From Arthrobacter agilis (lineage in GTDB: Bacteria; Actinomycetota; Actinomycetes; Actinomycetales; Micrococcaceae): a stretch of 64,000 nucleotides of DNA. The stretch lies in assembly GCF_006494655.1 (NCBI RefSeq), contig NZ_VHIM01000009.1, positions 62,001-126,000 of the forward strand. The letters are read 5' to 3'. A program made the position numbers and the translations under genes. The notes beneath the pieces are model-generated. The model worked only from the letters and a program-made list of their open reading frames with translations. It was not told the origin of the DNA and searched no databases. Within the stretch, counting starts at the first letter, position 1; each line of letters opens with the position of its first letter. Positions 41,888 to 46,474 of this stretch are shown here, in pieces.

Positions 41888-42826
41888 TCAGGCGCGTGGA
41901 TGTGCCTGCTCGTAACTGCGCCGCAGGCGGTCGACCGAGACATGGGTGTAGAGCTGTGTGGTGGCGAGACTCGAGTGGCCGAGCAACTCCTGGACAGCGC
42001 GGAGGTCCGCCCCGCCGTCGAGCAGATGGGTGGCTGCAGTATGCCTGAGCGCATGCGGGCCGGTGGCAGCCGTGTCCCCCAGATCATCGAGCACATCCTT
42101 CACCTGACGCCGTACCGTTCTCGGATCGATCCGCCCACCGCGGCGGCCCAGGAACAGCGCCGGGCCGCTGTTCTCCGAGACCCACTGCGTCCTGCCGCGT
42201 CTCAGCCAGTCGTCGAGGGCGTGTCCGGCCGGTATGCCGTAGGGAACGGTCCGCTGCTTGTCGCCCTTACCGACGACGACGAGTACGTGCCGCTCGGTGT
42301 CGATGTCATCGAGGTCGAGCCCCACGAGTTCTCCCACGCGGATCCCCGTGCCGTACAGCACCTCCAGGATGGCCCGCTGCTGCAGTTGCCCAGGATCGCC
42401 CTGCTCCCGGCGCGCGTCGCCGTCCGCGAAGAGCGCCTGGGCCTGCCCCTGATTGAGCACGGCCGGCAGGGTGCCGGCGCGCTTCGGCGCCCGCAGCCGG
42501 AGGGCCGGGTTCGAGGGGATGACGTCCTCCCGGACCGCCCAGTCCATGAAGGTGCGGACGGATGCCGCGCGCCGCGCGAGGGTGGACCGCGCCAGGCCGG
42601 CCTCGTCGAGTACGCCCAACCACGTGCGGAAATGACGGAGCTCGAGGTGGCGGAGATCGGAGATCCCGGCGTGCTGGGCGTGCGTGAGGAAGAGCCCGAC
42701 ATCGGCCAGGTAGGCCCGCACGGTATGCGCGGACCGGTTCCGCTCGAGTGTCAGGTAGTCCTCGAACCCGGAGAGCGCTGCGGCGAGCGCGGGCGGACGT
42801 GCCTCAGCGGCCTTCACGTCCGTCAC
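41888..42826 (-). CDS. xerC: Tyrosine recombinase XerC
   Basis: Resolves chromosome dimers at dif with XerD. Core-binding N-domain (FEDYLTLERNRSAHTVRAYLADV), then the catalytic domain with Arg in GTGIRVGELVGL, Lys in VVGKGDKQRTVP, HALRHTAATHLL (His and Arg) and LGHSSLATTQLYTHV with the nucleophilic Tyr. The GTG at 42826 is chosen because a perfect GGAGGTG lies 6-9 nt upstream; it gives 312 residues, close to the usual 300. The ATG at 42901 would add 25 residues without a ribosome site. Housekeeping order with dprA and comM argues against a phage integrase. Confidence 0.93.
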   Translation of the reverse strand: MTDVKAAEARPPALAAALSGFEDYLTLERNRSAHTVRAYLADVGLFLTHAQHAGISDLRHLELRHFRTWLGVLDEAGLARSTLARRAASVRTFMDWAVREDVIPSNPALRLRAPKRAGTLPAVLNQGQAQALFADGDARREQGDPGQLQQRAILEVLYGTGIRVGELVGLDLDDIDTERHVLVVVGKGDKQRTVPYGIPAGHALDDWLRRGRTQWVSENSGPALFLGRRGGRIDPRTVRRQVKDVLDDLGDTAATGPHALRHTAATHLLDGGADLRAVQELLGHSSLATTQLYTHVSVDRLRRSYEQAHPRA

Positions 42827-42979
42827 GGCGTTCACCTCCGTCACCGTCCGTCGCCGTCCGTCTCGATGCGGGTCACCAGGAGCCATGTCACCAGTATCCA
42901 TGCCTTGCGGCGTCCGGTCCGGGTCCCCCGTCGGCAGCCGAACACGCCGAGGCTCTCCCGAAGGCAGACATGGCTGAGC

Positions 42980-43627
42980 TCAGCCGCCCGCCATCCGTGA
43001 CAGCGCCTCTGCCTCACGGTCGAGCAACCGGATCTTCGTCTCGACGCCGGCGGCGTAGCCGATGACGGTCCCGGTACTACTGACGATCCTGTGGCCCGGC
43101 ACGATGATCGACACCGGATTGGCGCGCACAGCGGCACCGATGGCCCGGCCCATACCGGCATTGCCGAGCTGCTCGGCGATGTCACGGTAGCTTCGGCGTT
43201 CGCCGAACGGGATGTCGATCAGTGCGGCCCACACCGCCCGCTGGAAATCGGTGCCGCGCAGTACCACAGGGACGTCGAAACGCTGCCGGTCCCCTGCGAA
43301 GTACTCCTCGAGTTCGACGGCCGCGCGGCCGAGCAGGCCGCATTCGGGGGTCTGCGGACTGTCGATCACCTTCCCCGCCGCGTCGGCGGTCGGCTCCGAG
43401 GATCGGGCCGACGGCGAGGACAACAGTGAGGACGACGGTGAGGACGCCGGCTGTCCGAGGAGGTCCGGCGCGGGACTCGGTGAATGATCGCCATGGTAGA
43501 GCCCGACGATGGCCGCGGCGTCGACCACGATGCGGAGCGGACTCACGGGGCTGTCGACATCGAGGTACGTGCGCTCGCCGCGCGGTGTGCGATCGTCCTG
43601 GTCATCGCGGGGTTGCCTGGTGGACAT
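42980..43627 (-). CDS. O6-alkylguanine-DNA alkyltransferase homologue lacking the active-site Cys
   Basis: The 215-residue Ogt/AdaB-type protein retains the N-terminal lobe (YLDVDSPVSPLRIVVDAAAIVGL) and the whole DNA-binding lobe (GTDFQRAVWAALIDIPFGERRSY, then NPVSIIVPGHRIVSSTG). The motif PCHR, whose Cys accepts the alkyl group, is here PGHR: codon GGC at 43094-43096, residue 178. The arginine finger (MGRAIGAAVRANP) is kept. Between the lobes is an inserted Ser/Pro-rich segment (SSPSSSLLSSPSARSS). The protein cannot work as a classic methyltransferase. It may instead be alkyltransferase-like (lesion-sensing) or decaying. ATG at 43627; downstream of dprA on the same strand. Confidence 0.87.
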   Translation of the reverse strand: MSTRQPRDDQDDRTPRGERTYLDVDSPVSPLRIVVDAAAIVGLYHGDHSPSPAPDLLGQPASSPSSSLLSSPSARSSEPTADAAGKVIDSPQTPECGLLGRAAVELEEYFAGDRQRFDVPVVLRGTDFQRAVWAALIDIPFGERRSYRDIAEQLGNAGMGRAIGAAVRANPVSIIVPGHRIVSSTGTVIGYAAGVETKIRLLDREAEALSRMAGG

Positions 43628-43745
43628 TGCGTTCTCCTTCGGGTGTGTGGCGTGGAAAGCTCGATCGTGGAGTTAGGCGGTACGCAGTAGGCGATTACTG
43701 GCAGGGCGGGGACGGGGGACGAGGGATGAGGAACGGGCGAACGTG

Positions 43746-44945
43746 TCAGCCCTTCTGCCGGAGCCATCCTTCGCTGGTTCTGATGGCAAGCCCGGCGAGT
43801 TCGAGCCGTGCAAGTCCACTCAGCACCTCCCGGGGAGCCAGTCCGGCGACGACGGCGAGCTTGTCCACTGTCGTGGAGGACCGGACGGGGAGGGCGTCCA
43901 GCACCAGCAGGTCGGGGATCGTGAGGCCGTCCTGGTCCCGGACCGGCGCGGTGGCCTCCCGCAGGCGATCGCCTGTCGGCACGCTGCCGATGGGCCCGGC
44001 AAGTTCGGCTACATCTGCCGCATCGGTGACGCAGACGGCCGTTCCGTCCCTCAGCAGCCGGTGGCACCCCGCGGAGTTGGCCGAATGGACCGAGCCGGGC
44101 ACAGCCCCAACGGGCCTGCCGAGCCCGGCAGCATGATGCGCCGTGTTCAGTGCACCCGACCGCCAGCGCGCCTCCACGACGACGGTCACCCCACTCAGGG
44201 CCGCGATCACCCTGTTCCGCTGCAGGAAACGCCATCGTGTCGGCGAACTCCCCGGCGGCACCTCGGAGATCAACAGCCCCCGGGAGGCTATGACCCGCAG
44301 GAGCTCCTCGTTCCCTGCCGGGTAGTAGCGATCGACACCACAGGCCAGAATGGCGACGGTGGGCGGCTGATCGTCGTCACCCGAGGCAAGGGCTGCACGG
44401 TGTGCCTGTGCGTCGATTCCGTAAGCACCACCGGACACCACGGAATACCCACGCAGCACGAGACCTGAGGCCATCTCGGCGGTCACGGACGCCCCGTACG
44501 AGGTGCTGTCCCTCGATCCGACGACTGCCGCCAACCGATCGAGGGGAGGGACGGCGTGGACGCCGCGCACCCACAGGCACAGGGGAGCCGCAGACTGGAG
44601 ATCGTCCAGAGCAGCGGGCCACTCCCCCGACTCCGGGGTGACCAGCCTGCCCGAGAGCCGCCCGAGCGTCGCCAGATCCCGGTCGGGAGCCAGGTCCGGG
44701 ACCCGGGGCGCCCACCGGTCGAGCCCCTCCTGCAGGTGGTCACGGCGACCATCCCCGTCCATGCCCAGGAGCTCGTAGAGTGACGTCCGCACCTCCCGAC
44801 CCGCTGTGAGGTCACCCCGGGCGATCCGCAGGGCGTCCACAGGGCCCACGACGGCGGCGAGTCCGAGGCCGACGGTGTCGGACGGCTCGAAGAGTCTCGA
44901 CAGCGCCGCCCGCGCGCGAGAGGTTTCGGGGACGGAGGCCGTCAT
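43746..44945 (-). CDS. dprA: DNA processing protein DprA
   Basis: The 399-residue protein binds incoming ssDNA and loads RecA in transformation. It has the Rossmann-like core VVGSRDSTSYGASVTAEMASGL and SGGAYGIDAQAHRAAL (LOG/DprA motif). VVVEARWRSGALNTAHHAAGLGRPVGAVPGS and a C-terminal winged helix (TTVDKLAVVAGLAPREVLSGLARLELAGL) follow. ATG at 44945 overlaps the comM stop (ATGA). It has a SAM-like N-terminal region of about 90 residues. Natural competence in this organism is not shown by the window. Confidence 0.95.
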   Translation of the reverse strand: MTASVPETSRARAALSRLFEPSDTVGLGLAAVVGPVDALRIARGDLTAGREVRTSLYELLGMDGDGRRDHLQEGLDRWAPRVPDLAPDRDLATLGRLSGRLVTPESGEWPAALDDLQSAAPLCLWVRGVHAVPPLDRLAAVVGSRDSTSYGASVTAEMASGLVLRGYSVVSGGAYGIDAQAHRAALASGDDDQPPTVAILACGVDRYYPAGNEELLRVIASRGLLISEVPPGSSPTRWRFLQRNRVIAALSGVTVVVEARWRSGALNTAHHAAGLGRPVGAVPGSVHSANSAGCHRLLRDGTAVCVTDAADVAELAGPIGSVPTGDRLREATAPVRDQDGLTIPDLLVLDALPVRSSTTVDKLAVVAGLAPREVLSGLARLELAGLAIRTSEGWLRQKG

Positions 44946-46474
44946 GCCGCTCGCTCCTGCAAACGGAAACCGAGAGCGGTGATGACGTCGTCGGCGTCGG
45001 GCCTCTGCCGGCCGACGAGGTCGGCGATGGTCCATGCGACGCGCAGCACACGATCCCACCCGCGTGCACTGACGAGGCCGCGGTCCAGGGCCTTGTCCAG
45101 GGGAGCCGTCACCGACCGAGGAAGAGCGAGCTCACCGCGCAGGACACGGCCCTCCACTTCCGCATTCGTGGAATGGTTCCAACGGCTCAGACGACTGCGC
45201 TGTGCGGCCCGCGCCTCGGCGACCCGCGCCGCGACGACCTTCGAGGTCTCGGCCGACGGCCCGCATGCGTAGTCGGCGAGACTCACGCGCTGCACGGCCA
45301 GTTGCAGGTCGACGCGGTCCAGCAGCGGTCCCGACAGCCGGTTGAAGTATCTGCGGCGCTGTTGAGCCGTGCATAGGCAATCGATCCCCTTCCCGTTGGC
45401 GAGACCGCAGGGACAGGGATTCAGTGCGAGGACCAGCTGGAACCTGGCAGGATACGACGCAGTGCCCGAGGCCCGGTGGAGGACCAGACGTCCGCTCTCG
45501 AGCGGCTCCCGGAGCGCTTCGAGCACCCGACGTTCGTACTCCGGCGCTTCGTCCAGGAACAGGACGCCGCGATGCGCTCTGGACGCCGCGCCGGGCCGCG
45601 GGATACCGCTTCCACCGCCGATGATCGATGCCGGCGTGGAGGTGTGGTGCGGACTCTCGAAGGGTGGTTTCCGAACGAGCTCTGCGCAGTGCTGCTCACC
45701 ACTCAGACTGTGGATGGCGGTCACCTCCATGGCGTGATCGTCCTCGAGGTCCGGCAGGATGCCGGGAAGCCGCTCGGCCAGCATCGTCTTGCCCGCGCCC
45801 GGCGGACCCATCATCAGGAGATGGTGCGCACCGGCCGCAGCGATCTCGAGAGCGAACCGCGCTTCGTGCTGGCCCGCGATGTCCGCCAGGTCCTTCACGG
45901 CCACCGGCTGCGGGACGGATGTGACCGCTGCCGTCCGCGGCACGGAATCGACAGGACCACCGCCGGTGATGTCGGCGCCGAAGGCCAGGGCCACCGCGGT
46001 GAGCGTGGAGAAGGACCGCACCTCGGCGGCGGGGACGAGGGCCGCTTCCGCTTCGTTCTCCGTCGCCACGACGATGCACCGGTGTCCGGCCTCGACGGCC
46101 GCCATGACCGCCGGCAGGACCCCCCGCACGGGACGGAGCTGTCCATCGAGCCCGAGCTCGGCGATGAAGACTGTGGGACCGCACCCCCGCACGTCGCCCG
46201 CAGCGGCCAGGGCTGCCATGACGATCGCCAGGTCGAATCCGGACCCCCTCTTCGGCAGGGATGCCGGAATGAGGTTCACAGTGATCTTGCGCCTGCTCAG
46301 CGGCGTCCCGGCGTTGCGCGCAGCTGCCCGGATGCGATCCTTGGCCTCGTTCAGCGACGCGTCCGGGAGGCCGAGCAGCACGAACGCCGGGAGCGTCTGT
46401 CCGATGTCGGCCTCGACCTCCACGACGTGGCCGTTCATCCCGACCAGGGACACGGCGTAGGTCCGGCCGAGCAC
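44942..46474 (-). CDS. comM: YifB/ComM family Mg-chelatase-like AAA+ ATPase
   Basis: ComM is a hexameric helicase promoting branch migration during integration of transforming DNA. Lon-protease-like N-domain (AVSLVGMNGHVVEVEADIGQTLPAF, FDLAIVMAALAAAG), AAA+ Walker A GPPGAGKTM, Walker B in GVLFLDEAPEYER, Cys pair NPCPCG and the C-terminal VLRVAWTIADL. 510 residues. The GTG at 46474 lies 2 nt after the yraN stop; the open frame runs further upstream only inside yraN. Part of the yraN-comM-dprA-(ogt-like)-xerC unit. Confidence 0.95.
   Translation of the reverse strand: MLGRTYAVSLVGMNGHVVEVEADIGQTLPAFVLLGLPDASLNEAKDRIRAAARNAGTPLSRRKITVNLIPASLPKRGSGFDLAIVMAALAAAGDVRGCGPTVFIAELGLDGQLRPVRGVLPAVMAAVEAGHRCIVVATENEAEAALVPAAEVRSFSTLTAVALAFGADITGGGPVDSVPRTAAVTSVPQPVAVKDLADIAGQHEARFALEIAAAGAHHLLMMGPPGAGKTMLAERLPGILPDLEDDHAMEVTAIHSLSGEQHCAELVRKPPFESPHHTSTPASIIGGGSGIPRPGAASRAHRGVLFLDEAPEYERRVLEALREPLESGRLVLHRASGTASYPARFQLVLALNPCPCGLANGKGIDCLCTAQQRRRYFNRLSGPLLDRVDLQLAVQRVSLADYACGPSAETSKVVAARVAEARAAQRSRLSRWNHSTNAEVEGRVLRGELALPRSVTAPLDKALDRGLVSARGWDRVLRVAWTIADLVGRQRPDADDVITALGFRLQERAA

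Follow-up and report, generated by a model that had tools for sequence, protein, structure and literature searches.

An Ogt/AGT paralogue without the acceptor cysteine adjoins dprA in three genera of Micrococcaceae

Introduction

Alkyltransferases are suicide proteins that are defined by one cysteine. Described members include the acceptor-bearing O6-alkylguanine alkyltransferases (Ogt/AGT, or MGMT), such as OGT of M. tuberculosis (4wx9, 4bhb), and the alkyltransferase-like proteins (ATLs), such as S. pombe Atl1 and E. coli ATL. In ATLs the acceptor Cys is replaced, mostly by Trp, the N-terminal domain is absent and a capping loop takes the place of the Asn hinge. Further marks of ATLs are a loop that extends the C-terminus, tight binding of O6-alkylguanine and interaction with UvrA/UvrC. 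In addition, full-length AGTs have had their acceptor replaced by engineering (human C145A, S. tokodaii C120S and S. solfataricus C119L/F, known to us from titles). Here, we describe OgtX, the name used for an acceptor-less Ogt/AGT paralogue encoded in a window of 64,000 nucleotides from Arthrobacter agilis (contig NZ_VHIM01000009.1). As far as its sequence goes, OgtX is neither an ATL, as it keeps the N-terminal lobe and the Asn hinge, nor an acceptor AGT, as it has no Cys at the acceptor position.

The ATLs, which are the known Cys-less relatives, are short and carry several other differences, whereas here an AGT that is complete in other respects had its acceptor changed, to Gly or Thr depending on the genus, and the result was maintained. 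The engineered proteins are likewise full-length with the acceptor replaced, but they are laboratory mutants while OgtX is natural, old and maintained. A natural full-length AGT with Gly or Thr was not found described in our searches of the open-access literature, where papers mentioning both Arthrobacter and alkylguanine had unrelated titles. OgtX is a natural test of what a binding-only AGT does, and of whether lesion flagging can evolve through loss of the acceptor with few other changes.

Results

OgtX matches PF01035, the AGT DNA-binding domain, with an E-value of 5.9e-26, and also TIGR00589 (ogt). Gly178 sits in NPVSIIVPGHRIV, where active alkyltransferases carry Cys, and the motif reads PGHR. 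Counted from Gly178 and free of gaps, OgtX is identical to human AGT at Asn170, Tyr191 and Lys198, which we take to be human Asn137, Tyr158 and Lys165. The same count pairs Tyr147 with human Tyr114, Arg161 with Arg128, His179 with His146 and Glu205 with Glu172; the human numbers of these four, and of Cys145, are those in PMC10779285.

The glycine is fixed in the genus of the window (g1, the Arthrobacter agilis group, family Micrococcaceae), where PGHR was found at the orthologous locus in 36/36 genomes with letters read. These loci are those of the source genome and 29 relatives (30) plus four more, all from a search of 57 genomes, and two later finds. Altogether 38 genus genomes were searched; for the remaining two, which are 68% and 83% complete, an ATL-like match is the sole one listed. 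Across 34 aligned genus genes the Gly codon is GGA in 12, GGC in 10, GGG in 8 and GGT in 4, and the genus matches to the window protein listed in the 57-genome search contain no stops. One locus (L045) gave no readable motif. An earlier, sequence-only reading of the window had described a full-length AGT homologue with Gly in place of Cys, had taken the normal motif to speak against sequence error while allowing for a single-base one, and had asked whether Gly is fixed in close relatives; the genus bears out the description, and Gly is fixed in it. A sequencing error or an oddity of one strain is ruled out by the 36 genomes and the four Gly codons. Public records hold the same protein under Arthrobacter agilis, echini, ruber, bussei, cheniae, subterraneus, crusticola and further strains, but they are mostly the assemblies already counted and add no extra evidence. 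Record WNZI01000002.1 (L088), titled Vibrio cholerae strain 35D, carries an Arthrobacter-type gene, and its label is evidently wrong.

Homologues linked to dprA are also present in two other genera of the same family: in 11/11 genomes of g53, all with PTHR (Thr replacing Cys), and in 2/2 genomes of g47, with PGHR. The nucleophilic Cys that Ogt proteins carry in an I/V-PCHR-V/I-V/I motif is Gly in 36/36 genus genomes and Thr or Gly in the two other genera. The remaining signature of Ogt is present, namely the helix-turn-helix, arginine finger, flipping Tyr, Asn hinge and His–Glu pair (34 genus proteins; 18/18 genus rows in an alignment of 110 rows), with an N-terminal domain ahead of the DNA-binding domain. 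Invariant residues of the C-terminal lobe in the 34 genus proteins are Tyr147, the Arg161 finger, Asn170, His179, Arg180, Tyr191, Lys198 and Glu205. This Arg161 and the N-terminal lobe of the predicted structure uphold the earlier statement that the arginine finger and both lobes are kept, while the match of the N-terminal lobe to Pfam Methyltransf_1N stays under the family cut-off.

The 110-row alignment allows the pocket to be compared between 31 Cys-less and 79 PCHR rows. The arginine-finger position is Arg in 31/31 Cys-less rows versus Arg in 50 and Gln in 29 of the PCHR rows. All 31 retain the positions of His146, Arg147, Lys165 and Glu172, and 30/31 retain that of Tyr114 (one Phe, in g47). 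The Asn137 and Tyr158 positions are retained as well in g1 and g53 (29 rows); in g47 the Asn hinge has become His, and Tyr158 Ser or Phe. Position 160 is Gly in 77/79 PCHR rows versus Ala in 16 and Ser in 2 of 18 g1 rows, Ala in 6 and Gly in 5 of the g53 rows, and Glu in g47. Acceptor AGTs such as M. tuberculosis OGT thus differ from OgtX in the acceptor Cys, in Gly rather than Ala or Ser at position 160, and in the interlobe linker, which is variable in OgtX. As a separate observation, Gln at the finger position is common in active-looking PCHR Ogt of Micrococcaceae and relatives (e.g. L105-L109, L113, L116).

No Cys is invariant in the alignment of 34 genus proteins, and so there is no hidden acceptor common to them. 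An alternative acceptor Cys within the genus is ruled out on this ground. In g53, three cysteines (C60, C61 and C162) are invariant in 11/11 proteins (L119, L120, L125-L133). Two of them make up an RCCF pair in the interlobe region, and the third is close to the C-terminus. The three may form a metal site or a disulfide.

Like the ATLs, OgtX has no acceptor Cys, keeps the Arg finger and Tyr, and probably binds without repair. The replacing residue is Gly, however, the N-terminal lobe is present, and Asn170 is invariant in the genus (His in g47) where ATLs have the capping loop. OgtX as an ATL is ruled out on two of these features, the N-terminal lobe and the Asn hinge, which are both retained. 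According to PMC10779285, a Cys placed into E. coli ATL did not restore activity.

Three PF01035 genes are present in the source genome: OgtX, a PCHR protein (L002) and a 154-amino-acid PWWR gene (L003). L002, the Cys-containing paralogue that the earlier reading had proposed to look for, is an Ada-type protein whose residue at position 160 is Trp (GFRWG), and its gene adjoins an AlkA-type gene; it belongs to the same family and differs from OgtX by PCHR and by this Trp. Its genus orthologue L069 branches separately in the tree. Where the PCHR paralogue was read, in nine genus genomes, it is Ada-like in 9/9 (L002, L069-L073, L202-L204). L003 is a short gene of ATL type, separate from OgtX. A short ATL-like match that stops at or before profile position 72 is listed for 38/38 genus genomes, with letters read for the source genome alone. 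In one genus genome that is 99% complete (G033; loci L020, L226), the listed matches are the PGHR gene and a short one of ATL-like kind, with no second full-length AGT match; it perhaps has no acceptor AGT at all. The source genome also encodes UvrA (C47:70962-73742). Two more long UvrA-like matches lie at C41:84461-86875 and C47:170995-173262.

Judged from the trees, the acceptor loss is old and belongs to a single clade that spans three genera. In a tree of 117 proteins, from which the substituted column and position 160 had been removed, the 47 Cys-less rows (34 g1, 11 g53, 2 g47) split off together with support 100/97, which requires one change from Cys to non-Cys. Further outgroups came from a search of 297 genomes of the order with a Thr form as query. 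Taking the 24 strongest listed matches from genera other than g1, g53 and g47, the 20 that were fetched are all PCHR, three others are PCHR (L038, L043, L049) and one (G403) was not read; neither dprA nor xerC lies in the 2-2.6 kb fetched at the 20 loci. With these 20 added, the Cys-less rows again form one clade (31/110 rows, support 95/88), in a tree that includes 18 of the 34 genus rows and omits 11 PCHR rows, from 11 loci, for their divergence. The row filter missed the PCHR loci L002, L048, L065, L067, L068 and L070-L073. A tree of xerC plus dprA (14 genus loci) does not resolve the three genera; a joint clade is not rejected (p-AU 0.25) but appears in only 6% of bootstrap trees. The distribution may reflect one gain, a gain with losses, or transfer of the locus.

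Selection was estimated as the ratio of nonsynonymous to synonymous substitution rates (dN/dS) by a counting method with no codon model. The DNA-binding lobe is the part of OgtX under the strongest purifying selection. Seven close pairs give dN/dS values of 0.01-0.36 for the C-terminal lobe, with 6/7 at or below 0.163, and of 0.20-0.63 for the N-terminal part. For the whole gene (tblastn segment) these pairs give 0.13-0.37 versus 0.10-0.22 for dprA and 0.03-0.11 for xerC, and in two genome pairs the PCHR paralogue has 0.12 and 0.10 where OgtX has 0.37 and 0.33. With the linker included, OgtX has a median of 0.38 and a maximum of 0.72 across all 404 genus pairs whose dS is 0.05-2. By these values, OgtX taken over its full length is less constrained than its neighbours and the active paralogue, and its DNA-binding lobe is constrained about as tightly. 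The sequence-only reading had offered an enzyme newly losing function as one explanation; this is not supported, since the change is old (one clade, three genera) and selection is purifying, looser though the whole gene is.

The gene keeps its place. Its downstream neighbour is a tyrosine recombinase, which we take to be of XerC type. In the genus loci (n=36) dprA adjoins OgtX in 36, and dprA and xerC flank it in 35; in g53 dprA is beside the homologue in 11/11 loci and xerC in 10/11, and in g47 both are in 2/2. Together, the three genera have dprA adjoining in 49/49 loci and xerC in 47/49. At the two exceptions (L020 and L133) xerC was not found, including about 5.5 kb further downstream; L020 is the locus of G033. 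Beyond dprA lies yifB in most loci examined, and in some the stretches end there. In a family survey of 197 genomes from 32 genera, the stretches fetched around 33 dprA loci of the 29 other sampled genera were searched by tblastn with window, g53, g47 and PCHR proteins as queries (E up to 1e-4), and no gene resembling Ogt was found in them. In 32/33 of these loci dprA and xerC adjoin without OgtX (exception L196).

A scan of contigs of 84,980 species gave 89 stretches and 31 relatives, 27 of Arthrobacter type and four sporadic PGHR forms (L100-L103); because the pattern covered PGHRVV[S/G/A] (and MGRA.GAA.), other Cys-less forms would escape it. Three of the four are isolated forms in Actinorhabdospora filicis and in metagenome-assembled genomes (MAGs) of Eggerthellaceae and Coriobacteriaceae (L101-L103); by reading, their active-site loop or finger region is altered, and their branches are long. 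The fourth (L100) is shortened by a stop and lies on a MAG contig with a coverage of about 2. L101-L103 were left out of the 117- and 110-row trees and L100 is in no tree; another tree, which contains L101-L103, puts L102 next to the Cys-less clade, but its branch there has a length of 2.11 and we regard it as unplaced. The four genomes hold further family members, and those read are PCHR (L166, L168, L172, L173, L179).

Discussion

The reading that we favor, at about even odds (roughly 0.5), is that OgtX binds O6-alkylguanine without repairing it and marks the lesion for a different pathway. That it binds lesions and hands them over is what we infer from an AGT fold that has lost its acceptor and kept the lesion-binding and base-flipping residues, the His–Glu pair and a selected C-terminal lobe. 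Here, OgtX would flip O6-alkylguanine (or O4-alkylthymine) into a pocket altered by the change from Cys to Gly. Without an acceptor it could not receive the alkyl group, and it would remain on the lesion as a flag, to be read by a different system for repair or recombination. The most likely one is nucleotide excision repair that depends on UvrA. OgtX would then act like an ATL without being one.

Cys-replaced AGTs from the laboratory have reportedly been solved, among them a Cys-to-Ser form with O6-methyl-deoxyguanosine (7e1p, by its title), and inactive human C145A is said, in a paper's title, to raise the sensitivity of E. coli to N-methyl-N'-nitro-N-nitrosoguanidine (MNNG). A Cys-less AGT can therefore engage lesions in the cell, and does harm when no further step comes after it. 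As the gene was kept for long in spite of such potential harm, a follow-up pathway should exist for OgtX. By analogy with the ATLs, as treated in PMC10779285, UvrA-dependent repair is the most evident candidate, and the hand-over to nucleotide excision repair that the earlier reading had raised is plausible. Following PMC10779285 again, an Ada-type protein that has Trp160 should perform poorly on bulky adducts. This would leave a niche for OgtX, which may serve adducts that its Ada-type partner handles poorly.

Several observations weigh against this reading. The separate short PWWR gene means that a second sensor is not obviously needed; equally, since that gene would do the job, the role of OgtX is not simply that of the ATL of this organism. 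Measured over the whole gene, dN/dS exceeds the values that dprA, xerC and the PCHR paralogue have in matching pairs. Finally, the loss of the hinge and of Tyr158 in g47 hints at drift or another role there.

DprA handles incoming single strands and XerC acts in dimer resolution. An unlikely but still serious alternative is that OgtX is a structural or regulatory DNA binder, which uses the AGT helix-turn-helix and is tied to one of these two proteins, not to lesions. It draws on the constancy of the locus, with dprA adjoining at every locus of the three genera and xerC at all but two, and on g47, which lost hinge and pocket residues yet retained the Arg position. A plain binder, however, would not need the positions of Tyr114, Arg128, Asn137, Tyr158, His146 and Glu172, which are kept in 29/29 g1 and g53 rows, and in other genera dprA and xerC sit together without OgtX in nearly every locus sampled.

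Far less probable is that OgtX is the first multi-turnover O6-alkylguanine dealkylase; we know of no AGT that turns over. Here, a water in the Gly cavity (or beside Thr) would be activated by His179–Glu205 and hydrolyse the O6-alkyl bond. The His146 and Glu172 positions are invariant in 31/31 Cys-less rows though their Cys-activating task is gone, Gly gives room and the Thr of g53 retains a hydroxyl. Against this, as a nucleophile on the methyl carbon water falls far short of thiolate, His and Glu may be retained to serve the fold, and the Cys-to-Ser form with bound O6-methyl-deoxyguanosine suggests holding, not turnover. PMC10779285 has a water bridging His146 and Cys145 in AGT, through which Cys is activated; on this reading, that water would occupy the Gly cavity in OgtX.

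We give a slightly lower chance to the idea that some members of the family have moved catalysis to different cysteines: C60, C61 and C162 are invariant throughout g53 but lie outside the pocket motif, and this could not explain the window gene because its genus has no invariant Cys. Least probable is a decaying enzyme or sequencing error, for although TGC to GGC is a single base and whole-gene dN/dS is raised, Gly is universal in the genus with four synonymous codons and no stops in the listed matches, the clade is old and single, and the C-terminal lobe is under purifying selection.

Gene layout and other observations

Coordinates of OgtX, its parts and its neighbours in the window
Feature	Coordinates	Strand	Basis
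OgtX, acceptor-less Ogt/AGT paralogue	42980..43627	minus	215-amino-acid open reading frame
Gly178 codon GGC, alkyl-acceptor Cys position (human Cys145)	43094..43096	minus	translation and genus alignment
Arg161 codon, arginine-finger position (human Arg128)	43145..43147	minus	genus and 110-row alignments
Ala193 codon, human position 160	43049..43051	minus	110-row alignment
N-terminal lobe, residues 18-57 (strands 19-24, 31-36, 39-45)	43457..43576	minus	predicted structure, pLDDT (predicted local distance difference test) 94-95 at residues 21-60
Ser/Pro-rich linker, about residues 58-93	43349..43456	minus	length varies across genus; low pLDDT at 61-90
C-terminal DNA-binding lobe, residues 122-208	43004..43264	minus	genus alignment
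dprA, upstream syntenic neighbour	43746..45059	minus	PF02481
Tyrosine recombinase, downstream syntenic neighbour	41888..42901	minus	PF00589, PF02899

A sigma-70-type consensus scan of 42800-43900 gave neither promoter nor terminator, although such a scan says little. The C-termini of OgtX are variable in the genus alignment. In three close genomes (L024, L030, L033) the homologue has a long C-terminal extension with a conserved RG-rich stretch at its end.
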